Assembly (NCBI GenBank): GCA_964017155.1
Contig: OZ024854.1
Location: 49,347,067 to 49,411,066, forward strand
Source of the DNA: Oasisia sp. SBJ-2009
Taxonomy: Eukaryota; Annelida; Polychaeta; Sabellida; Siboglinidae
Length of the DNA stretch: 64,000 nt
Direction: 5' to 3'
The notes under the pieces are model-generated. The model was not told where the DNA came from. It ran no database searches and worked only from the letters and a program-made list of their open reading frames with translations. Shown piece by piece: positions 12,569 to 60,542 of the stretch (position 1 is its first letter; every line of letters begins with the position of its first letter). The translations under genes and the position numbers were made by a program.

Positions 12569-13050
12569 TGTAGCGTTTGCGGGATAACACCCCGCCACCA
12601 AATCGTATCGTTTGGCGCGAGCGGTCGGCACGGAGGCGTCTAGTGGCGGACTCGGGCACACGTTCACTCACTCAGTCTAACCAGTCTAACACCAACAATA
12701 TATATAAGGTTTCTACAGTTTATTACATCAAAATCCTACCAGTACAAATCTAAGACACTCACTAAAATACTTCACTAACTAAACCAATATAAACACAATA
12801 CAAATGTGACGGTACTGACAGCGTGTTTGACACGCGATCAAGCAAAGAACTCACCCACAGGTGTGGTGTGGTTCCTCAATCAGAGCACAATATGCCTCGT
12901 ACGGCACAACTTCTTTCAGCACAATGGACTGTGACAGTATCTTTGTCACAGGGCGCTCTGGAGCGGCGTGTTTCGGGGTGAACAGCGTATGTGTGTGTTC
13001 CCCGACAAATGGCCCCAGTAGTCAACCTCGAATCATTAAAATACTCCCTA
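12569..13050 (-). repeat. 3' LTR, outer fragment (left of the transposon insertion)
   Basis: The first 482 bp of the left LTR in plus orientation, matching 34904-35385 or so base for base by eye. It stops at the TA target duplication (13049-13050) of the 17-kb DNA transposon. Confidence 0.95.
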
Positions 13051-13059
13051 CCCAGATAG

Positions 13060-14131
13060 CAAGCCTACGTTGGCCCAATGTTGGCCCAACTATGGTACCG
13101 TTGGCATAATGTTGGCGTTGGGTGAACAACGTTGGGCCAACATTGGGCCAATGATGTACCGCCAACATAAATTTCAAATAAACTGAGTTTGATATTATTA
13201 ATGTTGGTACAGGGGTGGTTCAATTAATGACACAATCCACATAATTATACAGTTAAATTTTCAGTTATACAAATTTGGACTAACGTTGGGCCAACGTTGG
13301 GCCAACATTGGCATTTTACATTGGGCCAACATTGGCAAAATACGTGGGGCCAACGTCATTTTGCTCGTTGGCCCTACGTTGGCCCAACATGTTGGGCCAA
13401 CGTTGGGCCAACGTTGGCAAATTATAATCCAATGTTGGGCCAACGTTGGGCCAACGTTGGCATTTTACATTGGGCCAACGTTGGCAACATACGTTGGGCC
13501 AACGTCATTTTGCTCGTTGGCCCTACGTTGGCCCAACATGTTGGGCCAACGTTGGGCCAACGTTGGCAAATTATAATCCAATGTTGGGCCAACGTTGGCA
13601 TTTTACATTGGGCCAACGTTGGCAACATACGTTGGGCCAACGTCATTTTGCTCGTTGGCCCTACGTTGGCCCAACATGTTGGGCCAACGTTGGCAACATA
13701 CGTTGGGCCAACGTCATTTTGCTCGTTGGCCCTACGTTGGCCCAACATGTTGGGCCAACGTTGGGCCAACGTTGGCAAATTATAATCCAATGTTGGGCCA
13801 ACGTTGGCATTTTACATTGGGCCAACGTTGGCAACATACGTTGGGTCAACGTCATTTTGCTCGTTGGCCCTACGTTGGCCCAACATGTTGGGCCAACATT
13901 GGGCCAACGTTGGCAAATTATAATCCAATGTTGGGCCAACGTTGGCATTTTACATTGGGCCAACGTTGGCAACATACGTTGGGCCAACGTCATTTTGCTC
14001 GTTGGCCCAACATGTTGGGCCAACGTTGGCAAATTATAATCCAATGTTGGGCTAACGTTGGCACATTTTAATCCAATGATGGCCCAACGTTGGGTTTGTG
14101 TTGGGCCAACGTTGGCCCAATATTGGGCCAA
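13060..14131 (+). repeat. Left subterminal array of GTTGGGCCAAC palindromes
   Basis: Tandem and higher-order repeats of GTTGGGCCAACGTTGGC, punctuated by recurring spacers (ATTATAATCCAATG, GGCATTTTACATTGG, CGTCATTTTGCTCGTTGG). The higher-order unit is about 130-180 bp. Because the core is its own reverse complement, open frames appear on both strands (WANVGPTL-type peptides). They reflect repeat length, not selection. Confidence 0.97.
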
Positions 14132-14319
14132 CGTAAGCTTAATATGTGTATGTGGTTTTTATGTTCAGCCAGCATTAACTGGCTTAACGAATATATTTTT
14201 GGTCTTGTGTTCAGAAGCTACATGTTTCTTATATAGCACACAGGTCTTGGTTTTTAAAAATGGTTTATTAATATGGAACTGCTCATAACATATGATACCG
14301 TCACATCACTAAACTTCAA

Positions 14320-14692
14320 TACACCCACACACAAGCACACATTCACATACATCTACATACACACCACCACAGCTACATGCACACAACAGCATAGCACACA
14401 CCACACACACACACACACACACGCACGCACGCACATGTACACACACATCCACACACTCACACACATACTCAGTCACTCACACGTACACATTACACAACTA
14501 CACACACACTCGCACACACTCGGTCACTCACACACACGTTTACACACATACACATGCACATGCACATGCACATGCACATGCACATGCACATGCACATAAG
14601 CACCACACACACACACACCACATAAACACACATATGCACACCTATGTATGCATCAACACAAATGTGCACACACTCGTATGCACATACATGTG

Positions 14693-14738
<46 letters not shown>

Positions 14739-14885
14739 CACACGTGTATGTGTGCATATGCATGCACACATGGATCGATTTGCAGGTATACACATATATA
14801 GACAACCAACACACACACACATAGACAACATATAAACATCACACACACCACATATACACATCCACACAACTACACTTATGCACAA
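14320..14885. repeat. (CA)n-rich low-complexity block
   Basis: CACA, CACG and CATGCA runs (ACATGC hexamer repeated at about 14550-14594) with a (TA)n core at about 14706-14735. It lies inside the big transposon next to its left array. It resumes after the MITE at about 15143-15320. Apparent Thr/His or Cys/Val open frames are artefacts. Confidence 0.95.
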
Positions 14886-14892
14886 ACATGTA

Positions 14893-15141
14893 CCCAGACA
14901 GCATGCAAACGTTAATCTAACGTTAATTTAACGTTTGCATTAACGTTTGTTTAACGTCTACGTACGAACGTTTTTTTGCGTTATTTTGCTCGTTTATTTA
15001 ATGTAGATCTACGTTTACTTTCTAACCAAAAAAACAAACCAAAAACTAACATTTCGGGAACGTTAGAGATTTAACCGTAACCAAAATAAAACGGTTATAA
15101 CCAAATGCAAACGTTAATGTAACGTTTGCATGCTATCTGGG
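14893..15141. mobile_element. 249-bp MITE with the same termini as the 17-kb transposon
   Basis: Begins CCCAGACAGCATGCAAACG and ends in its inverse (CGTTTGCATGCTATCTGGG). It is flanked by TA (14891-14892 and 15142-15143), the same duplication as the big element. The TIR is about 22 bp with one mismatch. Inside are repeated AACGTT words and ATTTTGCTCGTT, the same motif as in the spacers of the big element's arrays. It has no coding capacity. It is most simply a non-autonomous relative mobilised by the same type of transposase. Confidence 0.88.
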
Positions 15142-15324
15142 TATGCATACACACACTCATACACGTGCACATACATATGCACACACACATATGGGTGTCC
15201 ATACATATACACACACAGATGCACACACAGGTATACACACACACTTACACACATATACAACCAACATACACATACCACGTACATACATAGACACACCACA
15301 TGAACACACACACACCATGTAGAT

Positions 15325-15505
15325 GCATACAAATTAATTGAGTTTAATATTCTAACGATGGTACAGTGATGGCTCAATTACTGACCTGATACACATAATT
15401 ATGCAATTCCATTTTTATACAAATATCAACCAACGTTGGACCGACATTGGGCCAACAACTCTAAATCAACGTAGTGCTAATATTGGGCCAACGCTGGGGC
15501 AATAT
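15325..15505 (+). repeat. Second copy of the transposon's left subterminal sequence
   Basis: TTGAGTTTAATATT, GATGGTACAG, GGCTCAATTA, TACACATAATTAT and TATACAAAT appear in the same order as at about 13180-13270 (TTTGATATTATT, TTGGTACAGG, GGTTCAATTA, CACATAATTAT, TTATACAAAT). Both copies lead into CAACGTTGG palindromes, so the left arm has been partly duplicated. Confidence 0.7.
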
Positions 15506-16253
15506 GTTGGCCAAATAAAAAAATGTCACCAAAAAAATTCATATAAAGCATGATGGAATTAACCTATTTAGTTAATTAAAGTACAATTACTATGAAATAT
15601 GTCAATTAGATTAACCGGATGCATTTATCAGGTCAATCAAAGTAAAATATTGCACATATATACACTGGCAAATAATGACAGTTATTCATACACTATCATT
15701 GTGTCACATATGTAATATAGTTTTGGGGAATGGACATTAATTTTGTTATCCATTTATAACTACAGTCTATACAGACCAAAGTTGGTCAACCACCCTAAAC
15801 CAACGTTGTGCCAAATTTACCAAAAAGGAATCAACTATACATTTACAGTTAACTATTAATAACCTCACACATGTATCTGCTCAAAGAAATGGCTCTTTCT
15901 AAAGAATACCGGGGTAATTGTACATTCTCTGACACGTGGTTGCAATTATTATGTACACTGTCACTGTCTCACAGGGAGAAGGCATTTTTGAGGAAATGAA
16001 ATAGAATATTTTTTCTAGTTTTACATATTGTAAACAGATGTTTTACAGATGTTGAAACATGGCAAACAATAAACAGAGAACATACGGTGCTTACATCCAC
16101 TTACATTACATACTGATATATATAAAAGTTCTAATAATTATATACATATATTGATTAATTAGTATCTACACTGACACATGTCATATATAAATATATATAA
16201 AAAATATATAAATTTATGTAATATAAACATACATATATACTCACACACATATG

Positions 16254-16315
<62 letters not shown>

Positions 16316-16659
16316 CACTATAATTTTTACAAGTGTTGATGCAGATACTAATTCATTTGTAGACTATCATAAGTCATTATATAATTATACCTGCTGATCA
16401 CCAATATTGTGCTCAATATTTCGAAATATGTAACTTGAAATCTGGAGTACCTGTTTAAATAATAGTGAACTTCTAATAGAACTAAAATCCAGATATGTAC
16501 GTTACCCAGTGACTATATATATAATGCAAATTATTACTGCATGACTTTCCCCTCTGAGACTTAGTTGGTGGCACTGCCTAAGTTGGTTAGAGTTACTTCC
16601 TTATTTATTTTCCCCTACCCTGAATGAAATTAAAATGAATGAAATGAGAGTGAAAAACA

Positions 16660-17045
16660 CTGACAGAGAGCAGATGCCCAGAAAGTGGAGGGGAAATGGA
16701 GGCGAGAAAGATCAAAATTGCAATGGGGGATTGCATTTAAAACCATTATCCATCATGCACATTGAGAATAATAACATTTTCATTGCTCTGTCAATTCTTA
16801 TGCTACAGTCAGTGACAGAAGTGAAGATTCGTGAAAATTCCTAACTTAATTCCTTAACTATATATGAATGATGACAATTGTTTTTTGAAAGGGTAGATCT
16901 GGGAAAGAAAATCTAACACATGCATCCTGAAACCAACTGTACTTTGTGACTCCATGAATCAGGCAGCCAGTTATTGGTCCTCCATTCCTCACCATCCTAA
17001 TTGTTTTCCAGGTTTGGGGGGCCATGGCCCCCTGGCCCCCCTCTT
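16660..17045 (+). repeat. Dispersed repeat family, copy 2
   Basis: Collinear with 7020-7600: shared GTGGAGGGGAAAT, TTGAGAATAAT, CAGTGACAGAAGTG, ACACATGCATCCTGAAAC and GGCCATGGCCCCCTGG. It lies within the big DNA transposon, so the family inserted there independently. Confidence 0.7.
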
Positions 17046-17269
17046 ACTGTACCAATGTATACCAAAATATACAGACACACCACAGCCTAGAAAAACAGCT
17101 TGGCTAGAATGTCAAAGGACTAGCAGTTCATATCATCTTCAGAGAAGTTGGATGACTACTTAATTGATTCCTTATCAAACCCCTAGATGTTCCCCATTTA
17201 GCAAATGATTATTGAATGACCATATCACTTTCCTCCTTAGACACTATAAGCCTGCAAGTTATAGGATTT

Positions 17270-17570
17270 CTTCAGTTGTCACCATCACTGCCAGTGTATA
17301 AAGACCTATAGGGCCTACTTCTGTGAATTACAGCCTTTTGTTTATTGGCCTTACTGTCTCCAGCTGATATCAAATTAGTGTTGGGGCTAAAATGCTGTTT
17401 TATCAGGAAGGCCTGGTTCTGACTGTGGTAATGTGATAATTACCCTGACAGGATGGGCAGTAAATTGATCAAGTCCAGTGTGTCTGGATTCTGGAAGCTG
17501 GTTTGTGGTGGCAGGCAGTCCAGATATTATAAACAGATGTGATAGTCCCAATGAAGCAATTACTTTAATT
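17270..17570 (+). repeat. Diverged repeat pair, copy 1
   Basis: Matches 21215-21482 in order: CAGCC.TTTGTTTATTG, TGACATCAAAT/TGATATCAAAT with AGTGTTG, ATGTGATAATTA and AGTCCCAATGAAG versus AGTGCCAATGAAG. Both copies lie inside the 17-kb transposon. No protein is recognised. Confidence 0.65.
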
Positions 17571-18369
17571 CCCAGCTTGAATCACTGTATCAGCAGTCCT
17601 CTGGGATGCACACATATTCTACTTCCAGACTTGCCTTCCACTATATATAACATATACTTAATTTATGCTATTTTATAAATATATTATTTTATACCTAATG
17701 TATTTTATTTTGATCCTAGATCTTATGTAATTTCTCACAAAAATTGTGCCAACCATTTTTTTATCATAGGTTGTTTAATTTATTTGGCTAGAAGGGATAC
17801 CCCCTTTCGCACACGAATATTTTAAATCCACAAAACTGTGGCCAATAGATGGTCATATTTTCATATGTTTTGGACAATTTCTTGGCTATAGGTAATTAAT
17901 TATTTTATTATGTTACACTGTATGTAAGGCATTCAGCTAATATTTATGTAGGATTACGTATACTTCTGCATTTATTTACCAAAAAAATAGGAGTTAATGT
18001 CATATCCTTACCATCAGTGTTATTGTGCTGGGGAAGTTTTGCAACACCGTCCATCTGCAGGCCTTTGTAGGTATAACCTATCAATAATGACCATGCATGC
18101 ACTTATTCTACACTCAATGTTAGTTGATAAATTGTATGTTAAGTGATTTTAGGTGTATTTCTTTATTAATGTCTTAACAATGATCTTAACACCAATTTGG
18201 AGACATTTTTACATCACCATCCGTCTCGCACTAGGATACGTACTATAACGTGATTTTTAGAGATTATAGTTAAACTAATTCCAAATCCGTGATTATGACG
18301 TGTCAAACTTCATATATACCAAAGGAATTATAAATATTCCTATTTCCCTGCATTATGTGGTGTCTTATT

Positions 18370-18612
18370 TTCACTCTACATTGCTTTAGTGCACTCAGCT
18401 GTATAAATGAGTATCTGGCTATAGACAGTGGTGGATATGTGTACGAGCAGCCTTCGCGCATTAATTGTAGCATATGGCGGGATGCTTCCCAGAGAAGTTG
18501 AGACTGTGTTTGACTGAACAGATCTGCCAGGGAAGTAAAGTGTAAAAGTGCTTTGAGCAGTTCTGGGGACTGTATAAAATATACTGTGCTATATAAGAAC
18601 TTACATTTTTAC
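18370..18612 (+). mobile_element. SINE, 5'-truncated copy
   Basis: Matches the body of the full SINE at 62503-62832: ACTCTACATTGCT, AAATGAGTATCTGGCTA, GTGGATATGTGTA.GAGCAGCCTTCG, GGATGCTTCCCAG and GTGCTATATAAGAACTT. The tRNA-like head is missing. Confidence 0.85.
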
Positions 18613-19319
18613 AATAAAGTGACTGGTGTATGCCTATTGGGTAATGCAAGAGGTTAAACATATATATATTTTATTCATTTGAACTAAGAATGTGTATTTT
18701 ATGTATAGTTTACAAGTTATTTGCATCACATTTGGCACCTACACACACAATCTGATTGAGGTTTGTGAACATACATATTCAAAATAAATACCTTATATTA
18801 CATGTAATACTCATTTTTGATGTATGTAACCGCACAGTGCGAGTAGCATGTTTGTTAATAATGCAAATGATACATTTGACATCCTATTGCGTAAGAATAT
18901 TTATGGTTTAAAAAAATGCATTTTTAACATAACCAATTAACTGTATTGATATAGTAAAATTTATGGTCCAATGTGGAACAGCTGGGCCAAATCACTGTAC
19001 ACTGTAAACCAGGAGGATTAACATCATGTCTTGCATATAATATATGTTTAATGTTATTTTTTAAGTTATTAATTTGTTTATATAACTTAACAATTTATAA
19101 ATTTTATCCATTTAGCTACAGGTGTAAATTATATATTATACAATCATATATAATATATAATATTATTTTTAATGTTTTACTGCACTTTTACATTAATCTA
19201 ACATGTAACCTTATTTATTTTTTATCTACTCATTGTTTAACATATTTACCTTGTAAAGGCTCTTTATGTGTATATGTATCAACTGTATATGGGTTTTACC
19301 TGAAATAAATATATTAGTA

Positions 19320-20686
19320 GGGGAAGTAGGGGCATATCGGCACACTGAGGCATGTCCGCACACCCTATTATTTGTGCATCCCGTAACATCTGGTTAGTGG
19401 AATCATGCTAATCAGCATCGTCTAACCCCCAAATCAACCACTTGTATATACTTTTTGACAGAAGTGTATAAGTAAAAAGTTATGACATACAATTTTATTT
19501 TCGTAAACACTGATGTAATTTTACTCATATGCTGTTATGTGTATTACTTTAACTGTAAGACGTGCAGATACATTTTTGTTCATAATTCCAAAGTGCATTT
19601 TAATGTTTTATGATGTGTGAAATAATGGATACTTTCATAAGTAGCATTTTCGCGCAATTCAGAATTATTCACGTGTTCGATGCTTGGGGCATGTTCGCAC
19701 AGGCCTGTGCGGTCATACCCCACCCGCTGTGCAGACGTATTTCGTGCATCGATTGGTGCTTATCATATTATATAGTCTACTTAGATACATATTTAGATAC
19801 TACAGTTGCATACCAGAAATATTATAGAAAACTTTGATGTGAGATAGTATATATATATGATTATTATTATATAATTATTTAATATTATCAAACTTATTAT
19901 ATCATACATCGCTTCGTCAGTGTGTAATAGGCTATATCGCGTTGACGTCACTTTTTTCATGTTGTGTATCATTAGGTCCGTTAAAGAAATAAAGCTTAAT
20001 TGATCATTGCTCATAGACTAAAATAACCAAGATGACAACTGATGTATAATCTATAATATAGAACTTTGCCCGTATATATTAGTCCATACAAAGCCATGCT
20101 CGCACAGCCAACAAACTGAGTTTTTAGTTTGACATTGCGCTTTACGAGATTATGCTGTTTTAGCTAGAAGGCTTCAGACAAGCTGCGTTGCAAACTTTGA
20201 CTTTCCCCGTTACAAAATCATGCTGTTGTTTGCTATGACTCTCATGGAGGAATAAACGTCGACTATGATTCAAGGCCACTGTATTTTCTAAACTTTACGT
20301 ATATATGAAAACTTGAAACCGTTGATTTGTGTTCTGTTGTGTTTTTTTAGTAATGCACGTGTCAGTAGTGTACACATACCAATACATATTATTATTGCAG
20401 TTAATGGTCGTCTCTGTGAGACCAGCTGTTGTTTCGCCATTCCTGGGGCATAACTGCACACAGTGTGCGGCTATGCCCCGTACCTTGGGGCATGGCCGCA
20501 CAAAGATATGCCTCTACATTTGACCAAATATTTAAATATCTGATGGGATATGCGATCTCTTAACTAACTAACAACAAAGTAATATGATTGCTCATTCTGA
20601 ATACTAAATATCACCCTCTTAGCACACACTGTGCATTATCTATAGCTTGTTTCACCTTAAGTTTGCGGACATGCCCCTACTTCCCC
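19320..20686. mobile_element. 1.37-kb TIR DNA element nested in the big transposon
   Basis: Begins GGGGAAGTAGGGGCAT and ends ATGCCCCTACTTCCCC, a 16-bp perfect inverted repeat flanked by TA (19318-19319 and 20687-20688). Inside, the terminal theme recurs: GGGGCATGTTCGCACAGG and TGCGGTCATACCCC at about 19687-19720, and GGGGCATAACTGCACA and GGGGCATGGCCGCACA at about 20446-20502. No transposase is readable, so it is non-autonomous. Confidence 0.87.
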
Positions 20687-20688
20687 TA

Positions 20689-21968
20689 TTTATAATTGAC
20701 ATCCGTTGCATAATGAGGTAAAAAAAATGTGCAGATAACTCAAAAGGGTGGAATATACATAGATAATATGGATTGGATTCTCAATATGCTGAAGGCAAAG
20801 GCTTCCTAGCCCACTTTCCATCTGGAGTTCACTCTCAGATGGCAATCTTGTTAAATTTGGTTAAATCTTGTAATTATTACCACCACCGCGTTACCATTTC
20901 GAATCGCAGCACGGAAATTTCTTCGCGCGACATTGTCTCGAATGGGTATATTTTGTATTTCGCCAAAATATACCTTTTTAAAAATTCATTTGCACAAGTG
21001 GAATAAAATAAGTGTTACATACACTGTATTTTGAATATCGGTACACTTTGCAAATGTTTCTTCATATTTTGAAAAATCGGCATGTTTTTTACTCATGTGT
21101 TCGACTAACAGGCTGGCCAGTAATAAAAAGGCAGTATCATATTATAGACCTGGCTTATAGTTACAATAGTAGCAGGATTTCTTTCATTTCCATTTGTTCT
21201 GGGTGAGGCACCCATTGACAGTGGACCCCATTGATTGCTTCTGCTTCTACAGCCATTTGTTTATTGCCCTTGTGATAGCAGGCTGACATCAAATGAGTGT
21301 TGCAACTGGTCTAGACTAGATTGTGTTTAATCAGGACATCTTGATGCTGATAGTGACCATGTGATAATTAGCCTAACATCTTTCGATGTAAATTGATTAC
21401 AGTGCTTCTGTCTGGCATCTGGCTGACACTGACTGTAAACAGACCTAGCTATCACGTGATAGTGCCAATGAAGTAAATGACAAATTCATAGTATTCATTT
21501 CCATAAAAAGGAATTTTAACATAACTTAAAAAGGTAATGTATTAAGCAATTTTGATTAAAAATGTATATGTAATAAACATTGTAAATGAGAATGATACTT
21601 TCACAGAATAGTATTTTCAAAGCAAGAGCAGTTGTTTGGTGCGGGGCAGCTTCTGGCTTTGGCGCCCGGGGATTAACGGACGCTAATGGATTAGACCATT
21701 AGTGGCCTGCTGCTTCTACAGGGTGGACAGTTTTATTGTTGATTGCGATTTCCGTTGGAATTAAGACTGTGCAAGGATTGAGGTTTGTGTAACACATATT
21801 TTGCTTTTTATTTAAGTGTCTGGTTGTCAAACTGCATCATATTACATATCTATACTGATTGATGTATATATAATATAGCCATTTATTTAGTGGGATCATT
21901 TGCGTTATTAATCAGTCAGGCTCAAAACAGTTGTTGAAATATTTTTTCCTATATTCTATGAATCTATC
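20689..21968. other. Region upstream of the transposase gene
   Basis: No coding exon seen. It holds a diverged repeat copy (21215-21482) and a GC-rich patch at about 21635-21735 (GGCGCCCGGGG) some 240-330 bases before the transposase ATG. That patch could be part of its promoter or 5' UTR. No TATA box could be assigned. Confidence 0.4.
21215..21482 (+). repeat. Diverged repeat pair, copy 2
   Basis: Second copy of the block at 17270-17570, about 0.5 kb upstream of the transposase start. It may be an old internal duplication or two insertions of one family. Confidence 0.65.
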
Positions 21969-24062
21969 ATGAACGATAAGGCATCATCATCATACTGGAC
22001 ACAACGGCGGATAATCAGGGAGAATGTAGCCCAACATATCAATAGTATCATAGGTGAATATGTTTGTTCAGAAGAACAGGATTCTGAGACTGAGTCCACC
22101 GTGACCAGTGAAACTTTTGAACAGCATCATGATCATGTCACGGGCATGGATGTCTGTAATGGATTTCATGGCAATATGGATGAAACTGTTCAGACTGTGC
22201 CTGAGCCAATTGCTTGTGAGTTTGATGACAATGTTGATGTCAATCAGTTTGATGATATGGAGGGTATCAATTCACCGAATCTCTCCTGTGTCAGTGAGAG
22301 TGACAGTGATACTGACAGTGATGATTTTAGTGATGTATTGACTTGCATCAAAGAGTGGGCAGTGGAATGTCAGATACCAATGTCTTCACTGGCATCTTTG
22401 TTACAAATCCTGCGGCCATATTTTCCAAACCTCCCAAAAGATCCTAGGACTTTGTTGCGTACGAAAACAAAGTACGATATAACAGAGGTGGCCGGTGGTT
22501 TATATTACCACTTTGGGATAGAATCAGGGATTCTATCCAGGTTTGTAGAACACCCTGAATTTATCCTGGATGATATGTGTGTTTTTGTTCAAGTGAACAT
22601 TGATGGACTGCCGCTTTTCAAAAGTTCAAATCATCAATTCTGGCCTATACTGTGTCGCATGGAACAGCTTCCTGACACAGAGCCTTTTGTAGTCGGGTTG
22701 TACTCTGGGAAAAGTAAACCTTCAAATGCTGAAGAGTACCTGCGTGCTTTCAAAAATGAAGTTAACCATCTCACCACTGACGGATTTGAACACAAGGGCA
22801 TGCAGTATACAGTGAAGGTATCCTCTGTCATATGTGACACACCTGCCCGAGCTTTTGTGAAGAGGGTCAAATCTCATACTGGTTACTATGGTTGTGACAA
22901 ATGTAGCCAAAGTGGTGAATGGTTGGGAAAGTTAATATTCCCGGAGACAGATGCGACACCAAGAACAGATGTAGCATTTGATGAGATGGAAGATGAATAC
23001 CATCATCTAGGACCTTCTCCTCTAGCAGGTTGTGGCATTGGCATGGTGTCTCAGTTCCCACTAGACTACATGCACCTTGTGTGTCTGGGTGTGATGAGAC
23101 GCCTGCTGATGCTTCTGACTAAAGGGCCACTGCTGTGTAGGTTAGGGCCACGTGTTGTTACACACATATCGGATTCTTTGGTAGCAATGAAACATTTCAT
23201 GCCCAGAGAGTTTGCCAGAAAGCCAAGAGCTCTTTCTGAGATGGACCGATGGAAAGCTACTGAATTTCGCCAATTTCTCCTGTATACCGGACCTGTAGTT
23301 TTGTTAAACAACGTCTCTGATGCAGTATACAAGAACTTTCTTCTTTTATTTGTGTCTATCCACATACTTGTGAATCCACAGCTTTGCTCTCTCAATTGTG
23401 ATTATGCACATAAGCTGCTGGTCTTGTTTGTCCAACATTTTGAAACAATCTATGGGCGAAACATGTTGGTATACAATGTTCATGGATTGGTCCATTTAGC
23501 AGAGGATGCAAGAAGATTTGGCTGTCTTGACAATATATCAGCATTTCCCTTTGAGAATTTCCTAGGTAAACTAAAAAGAATGGTACGTAAACCATCATTT
23601 CCACTGCAGCAGATAATTCGTAGGCTTCATGAAAAATCAGAACACCACAGGAGAGACAAAGATTCTCATAAGTTTCCACCATATCTGAAGAAACAACACA
23701 ATATGGGTCCTGTTCCACAGGGATATCCTTTATGTGAACAGTACAGTCAAGTGCACCTTCAGAATTGTTGTTTTACTACCCTGCAAGGTGACAACTGTGT
23801 GAAAGTTTCCCAAAACATAGGTCTTGTAAGAAATATATTATTATGCAAAGGTGACATTCACCTAGTTCTGGAATACTTTCAGACAGTTGACAATTTTTTT
23901 GATTATCCTTTGACATCCGAAACACTTGGAATCCATAAAGTGTCACATCTTAATGGTCACCTACATGCAGTACCTTTGTCTGAAATTCAATGTAAATGTG
24001 TTCTGCTGCCATACAGGAATTCTTATATTGTGACACCTGTCACAACCACATCAGTGTGGTAA
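21969..24062 (+). CDS. DDE-type transposase of the 17-kb element (697 aa)
   Basis: One intron-less frame from ATG 21969 to TAA 24060-24062. The start MNDKASSSYWTQRR fits the common beginning (..YWTQRR.IR..V..H) of this animal transposase-like family. Residues about 35-120 are acidic. The core carries VNIDGLPLFKSS (D212), VICDTPARAFVK (D290), a HTGYYGCDKC zinc pair (C309, C312), FPLDYMHLVCLGVMRRLL (D366, H369), KATEFRQFLLYTGPVVL, MLVYNVHGLVHLAED and AFPFENFLGKLKR (E529). D212, D290 and either D366 or E529 are the likely metal-binding residues; this is inference by pattern. The family resembles tnp2-like/DUF4218 proteins in the L-D-MH-GV stretch. It would cut at the CCCAGATAGCA ends. No frameshift or stop breaks it. 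Confidence 0.88.
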   Translation: MNDKASSSYWTQRRIIRENVAQHINSIIGEYVCSEEQDSETESTVTSETFEQHHDHVTGMDVCNGFHGNMDETVQTVPEPIACEFDDNVDVNQFDDMEGINSPNLSCVSESDSDTDSDDFSDVLTCIKEWAVECQIPMSSLASLLQILRPYFPNLPKDPRTLLRTKTKYDITEVAGGLYYHFGIESGILSRFVEHPEFILDDMCVFVQVNIDGLPLFKSSNHQFWPILCRMEQLPDTEPFVVGLYSGKSKPSNAEEYLRAFKNEVNHLTTDGFEHKGMQYTVKVSSVICDTPARAFVKRVKSHTGYYGCDKCSQSGEWLGKLIFPETDATPRTDVAFDEMEDEYHHLGPSPLAGCGIGMVSQFPLDYMHLVCLGVMRRLLMLLTKGPLLCRLGPRVVTHISDSLVAMKHFMPREFARKPRALSEMDRWKATEFRQFLLYTGPVVLLNNVSDAVYKNFLLLFVSIHILVNPQLCSLNCDYAHKLLVLFVQHFETIYGRNMLVYNVHGLVHLAEDARRFGCLDNISAFPFENFLGKLKRMVRKPSFPLQQIIRRLHEKSEHHRRDKDSHKFPPYLKKQHNMGPVPQGYPLCEQYSQVHLQNCCFTTLQGDNCVKVSQNIGLVRNILLCKGDIHLVLEYFQTVDNFFDYPLTSETLGIHKVSHLNGHLHAVPLSEIQCKCVLLPYRNSYIVTPVTTTSVW

Positions 24063-24401
24063 TTATCTACTGACCAATGTCCACCCTTCCAGTAGCAACT
24101 TTCAGAGTTTGTATGATTGTCTCCGGATCATTATATTTTTGTTAGTTTATAGTTTTATACATGATAATTGCCATCCATGAGTAGGACGTTTTTTTACTGC
24201 CATTTAGCAATATGTGTATCCTGTCTTTTTGATATTCTTTTTACCTCATACTTAGAACCTGATGACGTGCCGAGATATTATAAAAGGGATTAAAATGTGC
24301 ATTATACATAGAATTTTTTTTTTTTTAATATAACTATTCACAAATATTAATTTTTAATGGAAATCATTCAAGCAATCAACTGTATAATTGCTTTCTGTAG
24401 A

Positions 24402-27400
24402 ATGTATGTGATAGTGGAATTTGCGTTGGATGGCTCCATCGCATTAGTCCATAAAAAATGGATGACAACTGAAAAAGCTTGTATGTGGCCTGAATCCAAG
24501 TCGGCCATGAAAATTAACAAGGCTGTGCGGTCAGGCATGGAGCCTGACTCCTCGTTTAAGGCACACGAATGTCGTGTGCTGTACACGTCAAGTAAGTAAA
24601 AGTATTGATTAGTATTAATATTAACTGTGACTGGTAAAATAATAAATCTTTGTGAAATTTCTTACCAGTCTATGTGTTTTATTTTTAATGTTTCCTTAAT
24701 TCAGATTAACATTTAGCTATTTGTTTGTAAAAAGTATAATATCAGAATTTTTTTATGTTAGGTAGGTTTGCTGCAGGCAGAAACAGGACCACTACTAATT
24801 GATTCCATCATTGACCAGTTTACTGTTTTAAAGTTGACCAGTTTAATGGTTTAAGTTTTAAACCTCTACAATTACTAAGGTCACATTTGGTGCATTCCAT
24901 GTCAAATCAATAAAAAAACAGTGTGAAATTTACATGGCCATCTTTGATTATAATAAAATCAACTGCATTGAACTGGGCATTTTCACTATTTGTTATTGAC
25001 AGCTTTCTACGACAAAGCTCGACAAAAATTACAGCAGGCAGAGATGACCTCAGATCTGGCAACAGATGCAGAAGAAGAAACACCCAAAAAAAGACAAAAA
25101 AGGTTAGTTATTATACACTCATCTCAGTTCTGACTTAGACACAAATTATTGTAGCTGTAATTTTGGAGTAATACAGTTAAGTTGTATTATGCGACCAGGA
25201 GATGCGGATGCCTAGATGATTCCTGATTTTTATTGTTTCTATAAATAGTAAACCCATTGAACCAGATCCATCAAGGAAGTTTAGTTGACTGTGCACATGT
25301 TTTCTCTTTGTCAGCCATGGCCTGTCATGCTTGGTGGGTATCTCGGTAAGCAATACAAAGTGCTGCATTCTCTCCCAAAACAGTTCATGCTGTATAATTC
25401 AAGCTGTACAGCTGACTTGAAATTACTTTTTATTATTGCAGGCCTACATCTCGCTACTTATTGTCGGACTCGGATTCTGATTCTGGATCAGCAGATGTGA
25501 GACAGCCACAGCCCACCCGGATGGCATCACCTCCACCACATCAGAATTCACTCTCTTCGCCTCCACCACGTCAGAATTCATTGCCATCACCTTCATCATG
25601 CCAGAATTCGTTGCCTTCACCACCCCCAGTTCCATATGGTCTGACCAGCCCTCACACACCAACTTCAGTATCAGGTATATCATTTTTAATTAGGTGTATT
25701 ATTTGATGTGTTATTATCAGTTTAATGCTGCTGCAGTTTAATGCACATTTTGCTGAAAAAATTTAAGCTTGATGTTATGCTGCTGCGTAACATCTAGCTT
25801 CAATTTTTCAGCAAAATGTTATTCATACGGAATCATAAAAAAATGTATGTTCCCTATGATGACTAGTGTTTGTAATATGTCAGAATATCACACAATGATT
25901 CATTCTAATGCTCATTTCGACCCAAAAGCTATCCTTGTAAACATGCTCAGAATGTAAAGAAAAGCCTGATGCCAGTATGTGCCATCTCTGATGTCATAAT
26001 TGGGCATCCAGAAAACAGGGCAAAAATCTGCACATGTCAGATTTGTTGTGATGAGCTAAAATATATGAGTTGTGTTAAATATTTACACCTTGATGAGATT
26101 GTAAAGCTGTGAATATTTAACACAGAGCTTTGAAAGCCATTTCTAAGACGGTTTGGTGGAAAGTTGCCCGAAAATATATTTCTCTGACACAGAATGACCT
26201 AGTATGTCTTATGCTTGATCAGCCGCAAGGTTAATGTCAGTGGTACTCTCGGTCAAGTGATTTCATGAAAAGGAATGTTGCACAAGTGCAAGATATTGAG
26301 CCTATAAAAATAGGAAAGGGATTGCCCCTAACACTCTATGACCACTTTGCAAACATATTCAGTGAAGTACTCAAGTTTTGGTTTCATTATTCATACAAAT
26401 GTGCTATTCTTTGTTGACAGCCATTGATAGGAAAATGCTGACCCTTCTCGAAGAGCTAAAACAGCAGGGAAAGCAAACTCAAGCGTTGCTGAGACAAATC
26501 TTGAACAGTCAAGGTGCTGCCAGCAAAGATACTGGCCCAGCAGAACTGCCAGATGGCGTGGTCTTCCCTCTAGGAAGCCTTGATGCTATGAGGGAAATGG
26601 AAGCACTCCTGTGCAGACAGGAAATCTACAAACGTGTGGTATGTACATTATTTATATGCAGGGCTTTATGCAGGACCAAATTTAATTAATTATTGCCAGT
26701 CACACATGTTTTGATGGACACATGGATGTTAACTGTTAAGCCAGTTTACAAACTTTAAAATGTGTCTGATGACCTGAAATGGACTACAAACACAAATGTG
26801 ACACCATTTCAACTCACTTCTAAGGCATAACTGACAATATCTATGGTTTTGGAACACCTTTTCTGCGCCATTTTTTACCCGTCCACCCATATTTCTAACC
26901 ATCCACAATGGTTTTTACCCATCCAAGTGACGGGTGGAAGGGTCTCTGCATAATGCTGTGTTTATGCTACTATCAAACATATTCTGGGCAGTTAGATGCC
27001 TAGCCTGTTATCTAATTGTATAGAGATTTTATTATGACACTATAGATTTTTTTAGAGCAGTATCAATTATTCTTATTTAATACATATTTGTATGAAATTA
27101 TTTCTTTAATAACATATATACATATACATATATATATTTGTATATTCAAGTATATATTTGGATAGCATACTTAATGCAGTTGAAGTCTTGGGACAAATAC
27201 TGCTTATAATAGGTTTATTCGTAATTTAGAATAATAAATATAATGTTAAATTATGACATCTGATATTACTTTTCAAGATTATGCAAACAAACTTCAGTGT
27301 GTGTTGAATGTAAACTAAAACATATTCCTTGTTGCAGTTGGCTTTTCTTGGCACAGTGGGTGGGGAAAGCACCAGGGACACAGTGCGTCGTATCATGCGG

Positions 27401-28261
27401 CTTGTGCTGTCAACCCATCTGGCCCAGCAGCTGAACTGGATCGGGAAGGGGATCACCAAAACAGCCTTCTCCAACACGAAGATTCAGCTGATGATTACAA
27501 GTAAGAATATTATGTGGTATTTTTATGGCATACAGACTTTGTAATTGGTGAAAGTTTAATGGAATTCTAATCTTATCTGGTCAAAGCAATCTCTGTCAAG
27601 TTATCCTATAAATTATATGTATTATAATGTACATGTGCAGACGTTTAATATAATTTATGGTAGAATCACAGCTTGGATGACAACCAAGTACCTATTAATT
27701 TCACAGTTCTGTATATGTTTTTATGAAATTGTATTGAAAATAGATAGAGCCTATTCATGGTGTGCAGTATTTTGTATTATACCAAATACCCCCTTAGGGT
27801 TATTACAATAAGAGAATCTAGAATTTCACTTAAATCGAATATCTTTGACATTTGTTATACAACTCGAATATTGAATTGAATACAAATATTGAGTGGCTTC
27901 GAATTCAACTAGAATATTGAACGCTCTAGAGATGTCTTGCCGGGACCTGCATGGCAGCATTATCCCATGGCCATAGGCACAACTCCGAGCTGGAGTTGTC
28001 CGCATTGTGGCCATACGGCATACACATCGATCTTTTTGTTTACTTTCTGACCTAATCATGAAAGCAATTTCTTACAGCCGCCACACTTCTCACATCTTAT
28101 GTACATATACACACACTTTGTTAAAAAAATTAACAAAACAAACGCTATACCTGACATGATTTGCGGCAGGTACATGTAAGCCAGCAAGTTTTTGCAAGTT
28201 TTTAAATATTTTATGTTTTATAGTAATGCTAATGATTTTACTTTGTAACCTAGTGTGTGTA

Positions 28262-28350
<89 letters not shown>

Positions 28351-28808
28351 GTGTATATATATATGTGTGTGTGAGGATAAGTTTGGTGGTAGTTATTTAA
28401 GAGTTCACACTGACTAATTACCAGATATATTGCCATATGCTACTTAGTTGTGGATAATCATCAAAGGATATGATTATTTGTATTTAATGTGTGGAGAACA
28501 GATAATAGTTGATATTTCAACCAAGGCCATTGCAGCTATGCAGATTGAATAATCTGATGCATAGTAGAGTAGATGTCTCGCAAAAATCAGATTATACTAG
28601 TTATGACTTTGTTATACAAAACTAATCCACCATTATTGTATCCATTGCAGAGGCCGTCCGCTTCAATGCAGCGTCTGTAAAGGCGACAGATGCAGACATT
28701 GAAGCAGTCATGAAAGATTGGCTGCGCTATGCGAAGGATCGCGATGGTGGGCGCAGAAGGCGGGCTGAGGCGAAGACTCAGCAGGAAAACCGAGATGGAG
28801 ACTTTTAA
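24402..28808 (+). CDS. DUF4806-domain protein, second gene of the transposon (353 aa)
   Basis: Six exons joined by phase: 24402-24591, 25003-25102, 25442-25674, 26421-26638, 27338-27500, 28651-28808 (stop TAA). The start [16 protein letters not shown] directly follows a CTTTCTGTAG acceptor, so a 5' UTR intron is likely and this ATG is preferred to 24357. Residues 1-63 are the usual N-terminal module of this family (VEF.DG..ALV...W). A charged linker, a Ser/Asp stretch and four SPPP.QNSL-like repeats (about 110-165) follow, then a short coiled coil (about 180-207). The DUF4806 domain spans about 223-335: [59 protein letters not shown]. The basic tail is RRRRAEAK. The function of DUF4806 is unknown. 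Sitting tail to head with the transposase inside one TIR pair, it may be an accessory DNA- or protein-binding factor of transposition. AATAAA follows at about 28820. Confidence 0.87.
25744..25822. repeat. Hairpin in a DUF4806-gene intron
   Basis: CATTTTGCTGAAAAAATT and AATTTTTCAGCAAAATG face each other around GATGTTATGCTGCTGCGTAACATC, forming a near-perfect 75-80-bp inverted repeat. A second, smaller one (TGTTAAATATTTACA / TGTGAATATTTAACA) is at about 26072-26124. Confidence 0.8.
28264..28350. repeat. (TA)n microsatellite
   Basis: About 80 bases of TA in the last intron of the DUF4806 gene. Confidence 0.97.
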
Positions 28809-29116
28809 AACTTGTATGTAATAAATAAGTTACATTAAATTCATTTCTCTAATTACTATATGTTTGGACATTTGTTTGTTACACCAATTGTGTCATGTCA
28901 TGATTAGTTGTATATTAATAAACATTTATTAACAATCAAGATCAATCGTATACACCAAGACCAATCGTATACACCTGTTGAAAATGCACTTGAAACATAG
29001 TGTCTCAATCAACACTAAAGCAGATCTGTACCAGCATAAATACTAAATGTAATAAATACATGATCCAATACCAGGCACATATACAACGATTTTGCATTGA
29101 CAAACACGGCCTATGG

Positions 29117-30190
29117 TTACATATTATGACCTAATGTTGGGCCAACCGTGGCACATGCATAACCCAACGTTGGGCCAACATTGGCACATCCATAACCCAA
29201 CGTTGGCCCAACGTTGAGCCAACGTTGGCCCAACATTGAACCAACATTGAGCCAATGTTGGGCCAACCGTGGCTCATCCATAACCCAACGTTGGGCCAAT
29301 GGTGGCACATCCATAACCCAACGTTGGCCCAACATTGATCCAACGTTGGCCCAACATTGATCCAACGTTGGCCCAACATTGATCCAACGTTGGCCCAACA
29401 TTGAGCCAATGTTGGCCCAACATTGAGCCAACGTTGGCCCAACATTGAGCCAATGTTGGGCCAACAATGGCACATCCATAACCCAACGTTGGCCCAACAT
29501 TGATCCAATGTTGGCCCAACATTGAGCCAACGTTGGCCCAACATTGAGCCAATGTTGGGCCAACAGTGGCACATCCATAACCCAACGTTGGCCCAACATT
29601 GACCCAACATTGGCCCAACGTCGAGCCAACGCTGGCCCAACATTGAGCCAATGTTGGGCCAACAGTGGCACATCCATAACCCAACGTTGGCCCAACATTG
29701 ATCCAATGTTGGCCCAACATTGATCCAACGTTGGCCCAACATTGAGCCAACGTTGGCCCAACATTGAGCCAATGTTGGGCCAACAGTGGCACATCCATAA
29801 CCCAACGTTGGCCCAACATTGACCCAACGCTGGCCCAACATTGAGCCAACGTTGGCCCAACATTGAGCCAACGTTGGCCCAACATTGAGCCAATGTTGGG
29901 CCAACAGTGGCACATCCATAACCCAACGTTAGCCCAACATTGAGCCAACGTTGGCCCAACATTGATCCAACGTTGGCCCAACATTGAGCCAACGTTGGCC
30001 CAATGTTCGGCCAATGTTGGATTATAATTTGCCAACGTTGGCCCAACGTTGGATTATAATTGGCCAACGTTGGCCCAACGTTGGGTCAACATGTTGGGCC
30101 AACGAGGGGCCAACGAGCAAAATGACATTGGCCCAACGTACGTTGCCAATGTTGGCCCAACGTAAAATGCCAACGTTGGCCCAACGTGGG
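29117..30190 (-). repeat. Right subterminal array of GTTGGGCCAAC palindromes (inverted)
   Basis: About 1.07 kb. The inner part is a 22-bp repeat alternating ATTGAGCCAACGTTGGCCCA and ATTGATCCAACGTTGGCCCA units, with a higher-order unit marked by GTGGCACATCCATAACCC. The outer 200 bp repeat the left array's spacers in inverted order (ATTATAATTTGCC, GAGCAAAATGACATTGG, GTAAAATGCC) and run into the right TIR. The long minus-strand open frames have no gene character. Confidence 0.97.
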
Positions 30191-30205
30191 TCTGCTATCT
30201 GGGTA

Positions 30206-30748
30206 TTTATACTAGTGGTACTGTAGCCCGAGGACAGACGCTAGACGCCTTACCTAATATTTTGTCCAGCGCGTCTACCCCTAGAAATCTTGGCAGGGTG
30301 CCAGCGGACTCTGCACCCTGTGGTTTTCCCCAACAACAATAAAGTGGAGCATTTTCTTAAACCAGATGGCCCTAGAAATTAGCATAGACGAGCCTGCAGT
30401 GCTAGTGAACTTTCCCTCCCCTGGTAGCGTCCCAAAATACCAGGGTTGGTCCTCTGCCTCAGCCAGATGGCCCTAAAATTACCATATAAATTGCATAGGA
30501 AACCTTCCATACTGGTTATAGTCTCTTAACTGGGTAAACACCCTCCTTGTAAAATTATATAAGTATTTGCATGGCTTTAGTAGCCCTAAATAGTGGTAGA
30601 TATATATAAACAGTGGTACATAGATAATATCTATATATATATATATTACATATATATAGATATATATCATAATATGCACATACATACATGCATACATATA
30701 TATATATATACTTATAATTATAATCGTTATCGCTGAAAAATCCCTACA
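30206..30748 (-). repeat. 3' LTR, inner fragment (right of the transposon insertion)
   Basis: The remaining 543 bp of the left LTR, matching 35386-35928. It ends at CCCTACA, directly next to the polypurine tract. Its (TA)n-rich end is also the same length in both LTRs. Confidence 0.95.
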
Positions 30749-32918
30749 TTACCCCCGCCCCACTAAAATTTCGTCCCGAAATTATAACAGGTAACATGCA
30801 TGCAACATTATAATAATCAATACAATGCTGAAAAAGAAAGCATACAATTTATACTCAAATGTTCACTTTTCACAAATGTTCATGTCCGGTTGATATGTCT
30901 TCCATCACGCGATCGTCAGTCGCATCTGTTGAGCCGATAGTATCCTCCGTCGTAACCCACTTCATGGACGCACGGTAGACGCACGTCAGTTCACCGCTAG
31001 TAGTGGACGCTCAGCTCAATCTCGCCTGCGTCTTCTTCCATCTTCTATCTTCTTTGCAGATAACGCTGCAGGTTGTGACCAGAATGAATTCTGGTTCCTG
31101 CGTCTTCTTCCATCTTCTTTGCAGATAACGCTGCAGGTTGTGACCAGAATGAATTCTGGTTCCTGCATTTTTGTGTGTACGTATCTCGTACGCAGCACTG
31201 TTATGGTGTTTGCCATAATTAGTGTCATATGACCGTCGTGGTCATACATCGTTCGCCATTGCTTGACATGTCACAGCACTGACATGTACCAGGAGAATAA
31301 CGGACAACCATTGTCACATCCACAAAGATAGAACTTCATATCCTTGCCCTCAGACACAGAATGTGCCAATTAAGGTCGCCTGGCCTGACCAGGGTAATCG
31401 CTATCTCTGCCATCAGACAGTGTCTGCACCTTAGGGACTTGAAGCTGCCCTGTGATACAGATTCCTTGTGGCCAACTACGGCTGAGATACTGTTCTCAGG
31501 CCTATGCACTACTAACTCTTCTAGTATAGTTTCTCTGTGTATGTAACAGTATAATCTTCCAAGATATCTATATATATGACCAACAAGAGCTAACACATGA
31601 AAACTGACTCTAATCAACTTCATCCTATTCTGTTTAGCAGAACACACCCTGTGCCAATTAAATATCTATTAAGCCAGAAGCTGCCCTGAACAGAACTATG
31701 TTGATACTCGTTAACTCCTCTCATTACACCACTGGGCCAGTCATTGACCCCTAGACTGCAGCCATGCTGTGTGCTGACATAATCTAACCAGATGGTCTCA
31801 CAGCCTGAAACAGCCACAATGACCAGTTCACTGGCTGGCTGGTCAAATTACTTCTGTTTGACCAAGACTACTCTCTATAATTGAAATAAATGCATGAACT
31901 ATGCTTCAAGACCTAGCTGGCAAAAATCAGGATGAGAAGATGAACAATTCGAAGTGATGACATAAAACGCAGAAAGTTGAAAGCTGTATATGGCATCATA
32001 GCAATGAGGATGGTGATGATGATGATGATAAAATAAATATAGCTGTCCATGTCAGCAAGTGATTCCGTCCACTTTGACTGGGCAGATATGTGCAGGAACT
32101 TTTTGTTGGAAAGTACTTGAACGAAAACAATCACTTATTTTTAAACAATCTTTGAAACCAAACTTTCATGTGTTGAAAATAATTGGTTACAACGACATAG
32201 GGTAGACACGATTACACCGTAACATTTGTCATGTTCGGTTCTGTTTGTCACAGACCTCGTGTTTTGTGATGTTCGGTTCTACAAACTGTAGACCTCGCGT
32301 TTTGTGACTACCTCACAAACCATATGAACGATTACACCGTGACATCTGTCATGTCCGGTTCTGCACGGGGCAGACCTCGCGTTTTGTGACTATTTCACAA
32401 ACCATATGAACGATTACACCGAAATATTTGTGTTGTTCGGCTCTGCTTATAGCAGACCTCGCGTTTTGTGACTATTTCACAAACCATATGAACGATTACA
32501 CCGAAATATTTGTCAGGTCCGGCTCTGCATCTAGCAGACCTCCTGTTTTGTGAATCTCACAAATCATCTGAACGATTACACCGTGACATTTGTCATGTCC
32601 GGCTCTGCGTCTAGCAGACCTCGTGTTTTGTGAATCTCTCTTAGGCAATAAAACATACCATTGCCGACTATCATTCTCAGTTGGGTGTGACATATCCTGA
32701 TGATAATATGTGTTAGCGCTGTCTATCACAGACAGCGAATCAAGCCGTTATTTCTATATGACCATACATCAAATCCAGAATCCGCTAAACATTCTACTGT
32801 ATACCCTAATTCGATGAAAATATAACTAAGCAAACACCTATAATAGTAACTTGACATTATAGCAGATATAACATCTCTTCAACAGATCCAGCTATCCATT
32901 GAAGAAACCTTTCTCAGG
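30749..32918 (-). other. Non-coding internal part of the LTR retrotransposon
   Basis: This lies between the end of gag and the 3' LTR, where pol would normally be. No reverse transcriptase motif is readable. It holds a tandem duplication at about 31025-31166 (unit about 70 bp including AACGCTGCAGGTTGTGACC) and the array at 32207-32636. Confidence 0.7.
32207..32636. repeat. Tandem repeat, about five copies of an ~82-bp unit
   Basis: Each unit begins ACGATTACACCG and carries TTTGTCATGTCCGG, GCAGACCTCG and GTTTTGTGACTATTTCACAA. Copies start near 32207, 32329, 32411, 32492 and 32572. It sits just downstream of gag within the LTR element. Confidence 0.9.
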
Positions 32919-34739: not shown

Positions 34740-34903
34740 TAAACTATTCTACTTTAATCTATCTGAAGCAAGTAAACGTGCGGCCCGTGTGAGTTCTTTC
34801 AAGTGAGATTTTCAAGATAGATTAACCAAAAACCGTTACTACGGAACGTAGAGGAATACGGTCAGGTTTATCTACCGAAATCCCACCCCGGCTGCCACCA
34901 AAT

Positions 34904-35928
34904 TGTAGCGTTTGCGGGATAACACCCCGCCACCAAATCGTATCGTTTGGCGCGAGCGGTCGGCACGGAGGCGTCTAGTGGCGGACTCGGGCACACGTTC
35001 ACTCACTCAGTCTAACCAGTCTAACACCAACAATATATATAAGGTTTCTACAGTTTATTACATCAAAATCCTACCAGTACAAATCTAAGACACTCACTAA
35101 AATACTTCACTAACTAAACCAATATAAACACAATACAAATGTGACGGTACTGACAGCGTGTTTGACACGCGATCAAGCAAAGAACTCACCCACAGGTGTG
35201 GTGTGGTTCCTCAATCAGAGCACAATATGCCTCGTACGGCACAACTTCTTTCAGCACAATGGACTGTGACAGTATCTTTGTCACAGGGCGCTCTGGAGCG
35301 GCGTGTTTCGGGGTGAACAGCGTATGTGTGTGTTCCCCGACAAATGGCCCCAGTAGTCAACCTCGAATCATTAAAATACTCCCTATTTATACTAGTGGTA
35401 CTGTAGCCCGAGGACAGACGCTAGACGCCTTACCTAATATTTTGTCCAGCGCGTCTACCCCTAGAAATCTTGGCAGGGTGCCAGCGGACTCTGCACCCTG
35501 TGGTTTTCCCCAACAACAATAAAGTGGAGCATTTTCTTAAACCAGATGGCCCTAGAAATTAGCATAGACGAGCCTGCAGTGCTAGTGAACTTTCCCTCCC
35601 CTGGTAGCGTCCCAAAATACCAGGGTTGGTCCTCTGCCTCAGCCAGATGGCCCTAAAATTACCATATAAATTGCATAGGAAACCTTCCATACTGGTTATA
35701 GTCTCTTAACTGGGTAAACACCCTCCTTGTAAAATTATATAAGTATTTGCATGGCTTTAGTAGCCCTAAATAGTGGTAGATATATATAAACAGTGGTACA
35801 TAGATAATATCTATATATATATATATTACATATATATAGATATATATCATAATATGCACATACATACATGCATACATATATATATATATACTTATAATTA
35901 TAATCGTTATCGCTGAAAAATCCCTACA
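34904..35928 (-). repeat. 5' LTR (intact, right copy)
   Basis: A 1025-bp repeat with TG...CA termini. Its sequence reappears as 12569-13050 joined to 30206-30748. Around 35387-35390 the uninterrupted target reads CTCCCTATTTATAC, which shows that TA was duplicated when the DNA transposon entered the other LTR. Open frames in it have no recognisable product. Confidence 0.95.

Positions 35929-36426: not shown

Positions 36427-60542
<24,116 letters not shown>

Follow-up and report, generated by a model that had tools for sequence, protein, structure and literature searches.

A Probable CACTA-like Transposon with a Transposase Gene, a DUF4806 Gene and Palindromic Subterminal Arrays in the Siboglinid Oasisia

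What kind of mobile element is the 17,153-bp insertion that splits a retrotransposon long terminal repeat (LTR) in the annelid Oasisia sp. SBJ-2009 (Siboglinidae), and how might it serve the many shorter copies that share its ends? The insertion lies in a stretch of 64,000 nucleotides (the window; assembly GCA_964017155.1, contig OZ024854.1, positions 49,347,067 to 49,411,066 of the forward strand), and a preliminary description made from the letters of the window had presented it as a recently moved DNA transposon with two genes and two large subterminal arrays. We conclude that it is probably a cut-and-paste transposon of the animal CACTA-like (TRC) type, to all appearance complete, in which a transposase would act on the terminus and a second protein, with the Pfam domain DUF4806, on the arrays; this judgment applies to the classification and the division of labor between the two proteins jointly. 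Coordinates are collected in Table 1.

A Recent Insertion into an LTR

Once the transposon and one copy of TA are taken out, the two pieces of the split LTR join into a sequence identical to the intact LTR, which holds the empty site, at 1025 of 1025 bases. The alignment proposed in the preliminary description is free of differences, and the boundaries, the length and the TA on each side stand exactly as that description gave them. Both termini read CCCAGATAGCA. The LTR unit runs from TGTAGC to CCTACA and is flanked by a 4-bp duplication of its own, TAGT. A single template gives rise to the two LTRs of a retrotransposon; because only one of the pair was hit, the transposon insertion is younger than the integration of the retrotransposon, and because only one of the two carries it, it was not copied by reverse transcription. 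These results support a cut-and-paste insertion later than the LTR element. They also support a recent one, as had been proposed, since the LTRs show 0/1025 differences (95% upper bound of divergence, 0.29%).

Transposase and DUF4806 Genes

The two open genes that had been described are both confirmed: the transposase is a single frame of 697 amino acids, and the second gene reads without a stop through six exons separated by GT..AG introns. At E 0.001 the transposase has 3,261 protein relatives (best 120 listed). In an alignment of 51 proteins, made up of the window transposase and 50 chosen from these best 120, D212, D290, C309, C312, H505, H509 and E529 are invariant (51/51). The C(2)C and H(3)H motifs lie between the second D and the last E of the DDE triad, and C(2)C with H(3-4)H spacing is the CMCT signature of the CACTA/EnSpm group (PMC12730594). 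Pfam weakly supports the same placement. DUF4218 is the sole Pfam match of the window transposase at E 1 (E 2.4e-5, 24.6 bits vs the cut-off of 27), and at E 0.01 it is found in 31 of the 51 aligned proteins and Transposase_21 in 4. A PDB sequence search gave nothing for the transposase, and no relative was confirmed among the viral and prokaryote contigs searched. The frames are open and the catalytic residues of the transposase are kept. The element may still be active, as the preliminary description had inferred from its recent jump.

The product of the second gene matches Pfam DUF4806 with E 1.2e-7, the score exceeding the curated cut-off. Among named proteins, the closest relatives of this product are in the tubeworm Ridgeia piscesae (P0122, 72% over 90%; P0123, 90% over 50%).

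The gene pair also appears to be adjacent or fused in two sea cucumbers. In Holothuria leucospilota, a transposase (HOLleu_44057, P0027) and a DUF4806 protein (HOLleu_44058, P0125) have consecutive names, and their contigs are equal in length, 36,383. In Apostichopus, BSL78_20370 (P0138) matches the window transposase at 52% over 340 positions, and from residue 339 on it matches the DUF4806 protein P0136 of Apostichopus (99% over 185 positions). Another protein, P0129, shows 76% to the window transposase over 205 positions and ends in a short DUF4806-like part (38% over 47 vs the Ridgeia protein). P0138 and P0129 are predicted fusions and may be errors of gene models; the parts would be neighbors either way. 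Among sturgeons, a DUF4806 protein is found in Acipenser and a transposase relative in Huso (P0137, P0048), and the pair may reach vertebrates.

Palindromic Arrays at Both Ends

Two subterminal arrays, also named in the preliminary description, are evident. The exact palindrome CCAACGTTGG occurs 48 times in the element (21 left, 26 right and one between them at 15430) and is absent from the window's remaining 46.8 kb, and the outermost CCAAYRTTGG unit lies 24 bp from the element end on both sides. Exact 8-bp palindromes number 37 and 32 in the two arrays, vs Markov-shuffle means of 8.1 and 7.5. Among periods of 5-59 bp, 11 bp is the strongest in the left array, and the right array is led by 22, 44, 33, 11 and 55 bp.

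Gene-less Copies and Target Duplications

The preliminary description had staked its reading on the existence of further copies with the same termini, and these are numerous. In the assembly searched (764.1 Mb, 33 contigs), a 198-bp left-end query found at least 40 full-length places including the window (97-100% identity; 40 of 118 candidates scored); apart from the window copy these are at least 39 places, with matches at 97-99%. We fetched 20 of these 39 copies of what we call family A, each with at least 9.7 kb inward from the left end. The exact right end is present within 9.7 kb in 15 of the 20, giving lengths of 3,259 to 6,831 bp, and a transposase or DUF4806 protein match within 9.7 kb was found in 0 of the 20. 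All 15 two-ended gene-less copies bear palindromes at both ends (10-26 per 1.2 kb on the left, 2-26 per 1.1 kb on the right).

Genome-wide, the family A transposase has one full copy, the next best being 46% identical (43 stretches; 49/49 candidates scored). The family A DUF4806 gene likewise has one full copy (57/57 candidates scored), in a search that detected one DUF4806 exon of the related family B and none of family C (both described below) and so does not count all DUF4806 genes. Transposase pieces of up to 68% and DUF4806 exon-1-like pieces of 71-75% mark a decayed relative at C2 ~51.54-51.55 Mb. The window element is the only copy with both full genes found in the assembly.

Exactly 2 bp are duplicated in all 18 of the other family A copies that can be read on both flanks. 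This set (12, then 6 more) comes from the 39 other copies, of which the remaining 21, lacking an exact right end or lying outside the fetched set, are not in the count; five left flanks without a partner (L038-L042) were excluded. The 18 duplications comprise 10 different dinucleotides: TA six times, AG, GA and GT twice each, and AA, AT, CC, CG, TC and TT once each. The duplication of TA reported for the window copy is real, but it fails as a rule of the family, TA being present in only 6 of the 18.

At four places (L025, L039, L040 and L041) the left end stands within near-identical flanks, with ..ACGCCGACTC or ..GACGC before CCCAG; L041 is the flank of L022. It looks as though another repeat carried the left end along at these places.

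Two Related Families in the Same Genome

In family B, the transposase (C1:39334426-39336417, minus strand) is 46% identical to that of the window and is followed on its 3' side by four recognized DUF4806 exons, then an array, then the terminus. The array contains 22 TAACGTTA and 0 CCAACGTTGG, its exact 8-bp palindromes number 25 vs a shuffle mean of 11.9, and the right terminus is an exact TGCTATCTGGG at C1:39329324-39329314. A second, partial copy at C8:7.06 Mb is 97.6% identical over 3.3 kb, and neither an array nor an end lies in the 10-kb region analyzed there.

Family C is represented by two copies of the same plan (Table 1), both with a 2-bp duplication, TA in one and TG in the other. 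Their transposases are 45-46% identical to the window transposase, DUF4806 exons lie 3' of both, and the right array is built of CCGATCTCGG/CCGAGATCGG units, with 8 and 9 CCGATCTCGG in the two copies. The pair is 98.9% identical over 6,495 bp, a match that runs one shared base past the predicted right end and stops there. At least 40 full or near-full matches to this right end lie in the genome (40 of 127 candidates scored).

The order of transposase, DUF4806 gene, array and CCCAGATAGC[A/C] terminus is conserved in families A, B and C, whereas the array motifs differ, each array holding 0 of the other families' motifs. Across the tested periods, 11 bp ranks first in families B and C as in the left array of family A; in the right array of family A it comes fourth, behind 22, 44 and 33. 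Two transposase relatives stand in very long open frames, at C8:7058312-7060000 (3,074 amino acids) and C4:38754663-38755868 (2,178 amino acids), each of which could be a fusion, a simple repeat or a taken-over gene.

Relationship to Known Transposons

CACTA/EnSpm elements have target duplications of 2 to 5 bp, and the 2 bp found here (18/18 in family A, 2/2 in family C) fall in that range. The terminus CCCAGATAGCA is neither CACTA nor 5'-CA..TG-3'. Because the CA..TG terminus is said to hold for the CACTA/EnSpm group "in most cases" (PMC12730594), this counts against strict CACTA membership only. The terminus has the CCC core of TRC elements, as well as their 2-bp duplications (18/18). SmTRC1 of Schistosoma mansoni and its relatives in Aedes and Tribolium have a CCC terminus and 2-bp duplications (7/14 copies), and their insertion into LTR retrotransposons, checked against empty sites, was reported (PMC1636069; DeMarco 2006). 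TRC elements and the window element share the CCC core, 2-bp duplications, a protein that in the window element is putatively related to Transposase_21, and LTR insertions with empty sites; the terminal inverted repeat (TIR) of the Tribolium element begins CCCTAGTAGCA, vs CCCAGATAGCA here. Unlike the window element, SmTRC1 is ~4.5-4.7 kb long and has a 54-bp TIR and alternatively spliced transcripts. The available part of the TRC source makes no mention of a DUF4806 gene or of palindromic arrays, and the likeness is one of description.

Plant CACTA/EnSpm elements (En/Spm, Tam1 and Tgmt*) resemble the window system in their large size, their gene-less derivatives and an array motif that varies while the terminus is conserved. 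The preliminary description had regarded a cut-and-paste element of 17 kb with arrays as unusual. This part of it is not supported, as Tam1 measures 17 kb and Tgmt*, which has subterminal repeats, 20.5 kb (PMC2613891); from these sizes and the TRC precedents, the kind of element is already known and 17 kb is within the CACTA range. The En/Spm protein TNPA binds the subterminal repeats, its partner TNPD acts as the transposase, and both are needed; the two may act in trans on deletion derivatives, and the subterminal motifs are family-specific while the TIR is conserved (PMC2613891). The gene pair of the window would divide the same two functions. The asymmetric arrays of Tgmt* resemble those of family C. 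Plant CACTA elements differ in their CACTA terminus and, for Tgmt*, in a 3-bp duplication. Moreover, the DNA-binding protein of En/Spm is a product of alternative splicing with little similarity between families, whereas here it would be encoded by a separate gene whose domain is common across animal phyla.

The EnSpm-like ESTA elements of rust fungi (PMC12730594) share the CMCT catalytic signature with the window transposase. They are defined by TA duplications, whereas family A duplicates varied 2 bp, and with 12 of 18 duplications not TA we reject membership in ESTA. Literature on DUF4806, on CACTA/TRC and on DUF4218 with Transposase_21 yielded no such two-gene element; Repbase lay outside these searches and may hold an entry. 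As far as the searches go, what is new is the DUF4806 gene together with the family-specific arrays.

A Two-Protein Model and Its Alternatives

We propose that the transposase, with its CMCT signature, would bind and cut the conserved CCCAGATAGC[A/C] terminus and join it to the target with a 2-bp stagger. The DUF4806 protein would bind, probably as a dimer or a higher oligomer, the motif that recurs in the subterminal arrays, and the 11-bp spacing would line the protein up along one face of the helix. In this way it could pair the two element ends for the transposase, the part that TNPA plays for TNPD in En/Spm. Both proteins would act in trans on the gene-less copies (~3.3-6.8 kb), which retain an array at each end. 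With the terminus shared, the array motif would be what keeps the families apart.

Several observations weigh against this model. Binding of the arrays by the DUF4806 protein is a step that we infer from the gene order and the family-specific motifs. PMC11075544, citing Pan et al. 2023, counts DUF4806 among the BEN subtypes, yet Pfam BEN at E 10 matches 0 of 6 DUF4806 proteins (the HMMER filters discard most matches above ~0.1), and in this lack of a Pfam BEN sequence match DUF4806 is unlike the BEN-domain protein Insensitive (PMC6317261), with which we compared it. A DUF4806 profile search of PDB gave no credible relative; its 35 rows were TAL effectors, whose main rows had no individually passing stretch, and a few others at E 0.56-1.6, and we judged them chance matches. 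Arrays on both sides are not general, since that of family C is one-sided: on the left of the C6 copy, the 637 bp that precede the transposase match contain 2 CCGANNTCGG, vs 17 in 520 bp on the right. Neither are exact 8-bp palindromes enriched in family C (3 vs a shuffle mean of ~5), where the motif is a near-palindrome. The left end of family B was not found in ~20 kb upstream, and 2 of the 15 two-ended gene-less copies of family A hold few right-hand palindromes (2 and 6). In 5 of the 20 fetched copies no exact right end lies within 9.7 kb; for these, only the genome-wide protein searches speak against genes farther away. The transposase relative P0002, 91% identical and with 59 member sequences, suggests that some other assembly may hold many gene-bearing copies. 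Finally, TA duplications are enriched (6/18, P = 0.002 vs 8% in the window outside the element). TA is a target preference that the model leaves unexplained, though it is not required.

This preference, together with the TA at the window copy, is in line with a Tc1/mariner-like or other TA-specific element. Such an element can be dismissed with near certainty, because 12 of the 18 duplications are not TA and the two family C copies have TA and TG; the C(2)C/H(3)H motifs of the transposase and its relatives with DUF4218 or Transposase_21 also speak against it. Just as little credit can be given to an assembly join in place of an insertion, in view of the exact ends, the 2-bp duplication, the matching empty site and the outer TAGT duplication of the LTR, and of identical ends at 18 other places, each with its own 2-bp duplication.

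A role of the DUF4806 protein other than reading the arrays deserves more weight, although we consider it unlikely: it could be an anti-silencing or regulatory factor, with the arrays bound by the transposase itself or by a host protein. Among the one-mismatch array units, 23 of 37 are C>T or G>A transitions at the central CpG, as expected if the arrays are methylated, which makes an anti-methylation role plausible, and in fungi, transposon-borne TET/JBP genes likely help transposons evade silencing (PMC12730594). The transitions in the arrays suggest possible germline methylation, though there is no overall CpG depletion: the observed/expected ratio (0.83 left, 0.57 right) is not below that of the rest of the element (0.48). 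In addition, the gene-less copies retain arrays. The transposase relatives at 45-46% have the terminus in common with the window element but a different array motif, as would fit a separate protein that reads the array and diverges with it. The left side of family C, which has no clear array, slightly lowers our confidence in the reading of a transposase on the terminus and a DUF4806 protein on the arrays, and slightly raises the weight of this alternative. A little less probable still is that the transposon is now dead or silenced and that the gene-less copies were moved long ago by other, lost masters. In line with this, a single gene-bearing copy was found, and the gene-less copy L009 differs by ~2-7% in long matches from the other full-length gene-less copies (only L009 comparisons being listed). 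Against it, the window copy moved after the insertion of an LTR element with 0/1025 differences, and its frames are open. The two-protein model is the most probable of these readings.

Table 1. Positions of Features in the Window and of the Two Family C Copies
Feature	Position	Strand	Remarks
Whole DNA transposon	13051..30203	+	17,153 bp; ends CCCAGATAGCA / TGCTATCTGGG
Left TA of 2-bp target duplication	13049..13050
Right TA of 2-bp target duplication	30204..30205
Left terminal inverted repeat	13051..13061	+	11 bp perfect, patchy match beyond
Right terminal inverted repeat	30193..30203	-
Split LTR, left piece	12569..13050
Split LTR, right piece	30206..30748
Intact LTR with empty site	34904..35928		motif CTCCCTATTTATA starts at 35379
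Left subterminal array	13075..14126		CCAACGTTGG-type palindromes; strongest period 11 bp
Right subterminal array	29163..30187		palindrome as in left array; periods 11/22/33/44/55
Transposase (predicted)	21969..24062	+	single open frame, 697 amino acids; D212, D290, C309/C312, H505/H509, E529
DUF4806 gene (predicted)	24402..28808	+	six exons, 353 amino acids
DUF4806 exons	24402-24591, 25003-25102, 25442-25674, 26421-26638, 27338-27500, 28651-28808	+	GT..AG introns, no stop
Nested MITE	14893..15141		249 bp; ends CCCAGACAGCA / TGCTATCTGGG, TA each side
Other interspersed repeats in element	17727..18500		17727-18368 at 71-84%; ~18365-18500 at 94-97%
Family C copy	C6:17253967-17263174		9,208 bp; flanks TA/TA; ends CCCAGATAGCC
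Family C copy	C1:4709310-4718518		9,209 bp; flanks TG/TG; ends CCCAGATAGCC

Nested Passengers and Neighboring Repeats

The nested passengers of the preliminary description are also real. The 249-bp miniature inverted-repeat transposable element (MITE) within the window element aligns with the right end of family B, starting at the terminal base (81% over 140 positions, E 3e-33). The remainder of the window element gives no match to it at E 0.001; by sequence the MITE is related to family B and not to its 17,153-bp host. It has at least 40 other full or near-full copies in the genome at 93-97% (40 scored; 236 candidates). Eight MITE copies, often ~5.4 kb apart, lie in C3:41231188-41299701, as though they were part of a longer tandem repeat, and two MITEs abut at C10:30660254-30660756. 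The other interspersed repeats were delimited within a tested region of 17000-18500, with 1369 candidates at first look and 40 scored.

The interior of the LTR element (30749-34903) is only ~4.2 kb long. It contains a gag-like frame on the minus strand (32919-34748; Retrotrans_gag at E 2e-4, below the cut-off, and a zinc knuckle at E 0.01), which is the sole non-overlapping stop-to-stop frame of more than 200 amino acids, with no further frame of polymerase size in this interior. Perhaps this is a gag-only LTR retrotransposon. Minisatellites occupy parts of 40571-59885, with units of 40 bp (40571-43040), 35 bp (45250-46529), 26 bp (53782-54868 and 56853-57357) and 15/31 bp (58006-58727), and others besides. 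Rfam gave 0 matches at gathering scores in the window.

Implications

The insertion taken alone repeats the SmTRC1 finding of 2006. The further point is a two-gene plan, transposase plus DUF4806, that recurs in three families of one genome and, by the predicted proteins, in sea cucumbers. One gene-bearing copy beside dozens of end copies makes a natural master/dependent system, and natural pairs of array and putative reader within one animal would make the coevolution of CACTA subterminal repeats and their readers directly testable. More tentatively, and with somewhat more doubt than confidence, we suggest that DUF4806 arose or spread as the array-reading second subunit of an animal-wide CACTA-related lineage, that its families coexist without cross-mobilizing through their own motif/reader pairs on a common terminus, and that the window holds the single master driving dozens of gene-less copies. 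In that case, many "host" DUF4806 genes would be former transposon subunits. The two-protein model itself proposes a candidate function for DUF4806, a domain of unknown function.

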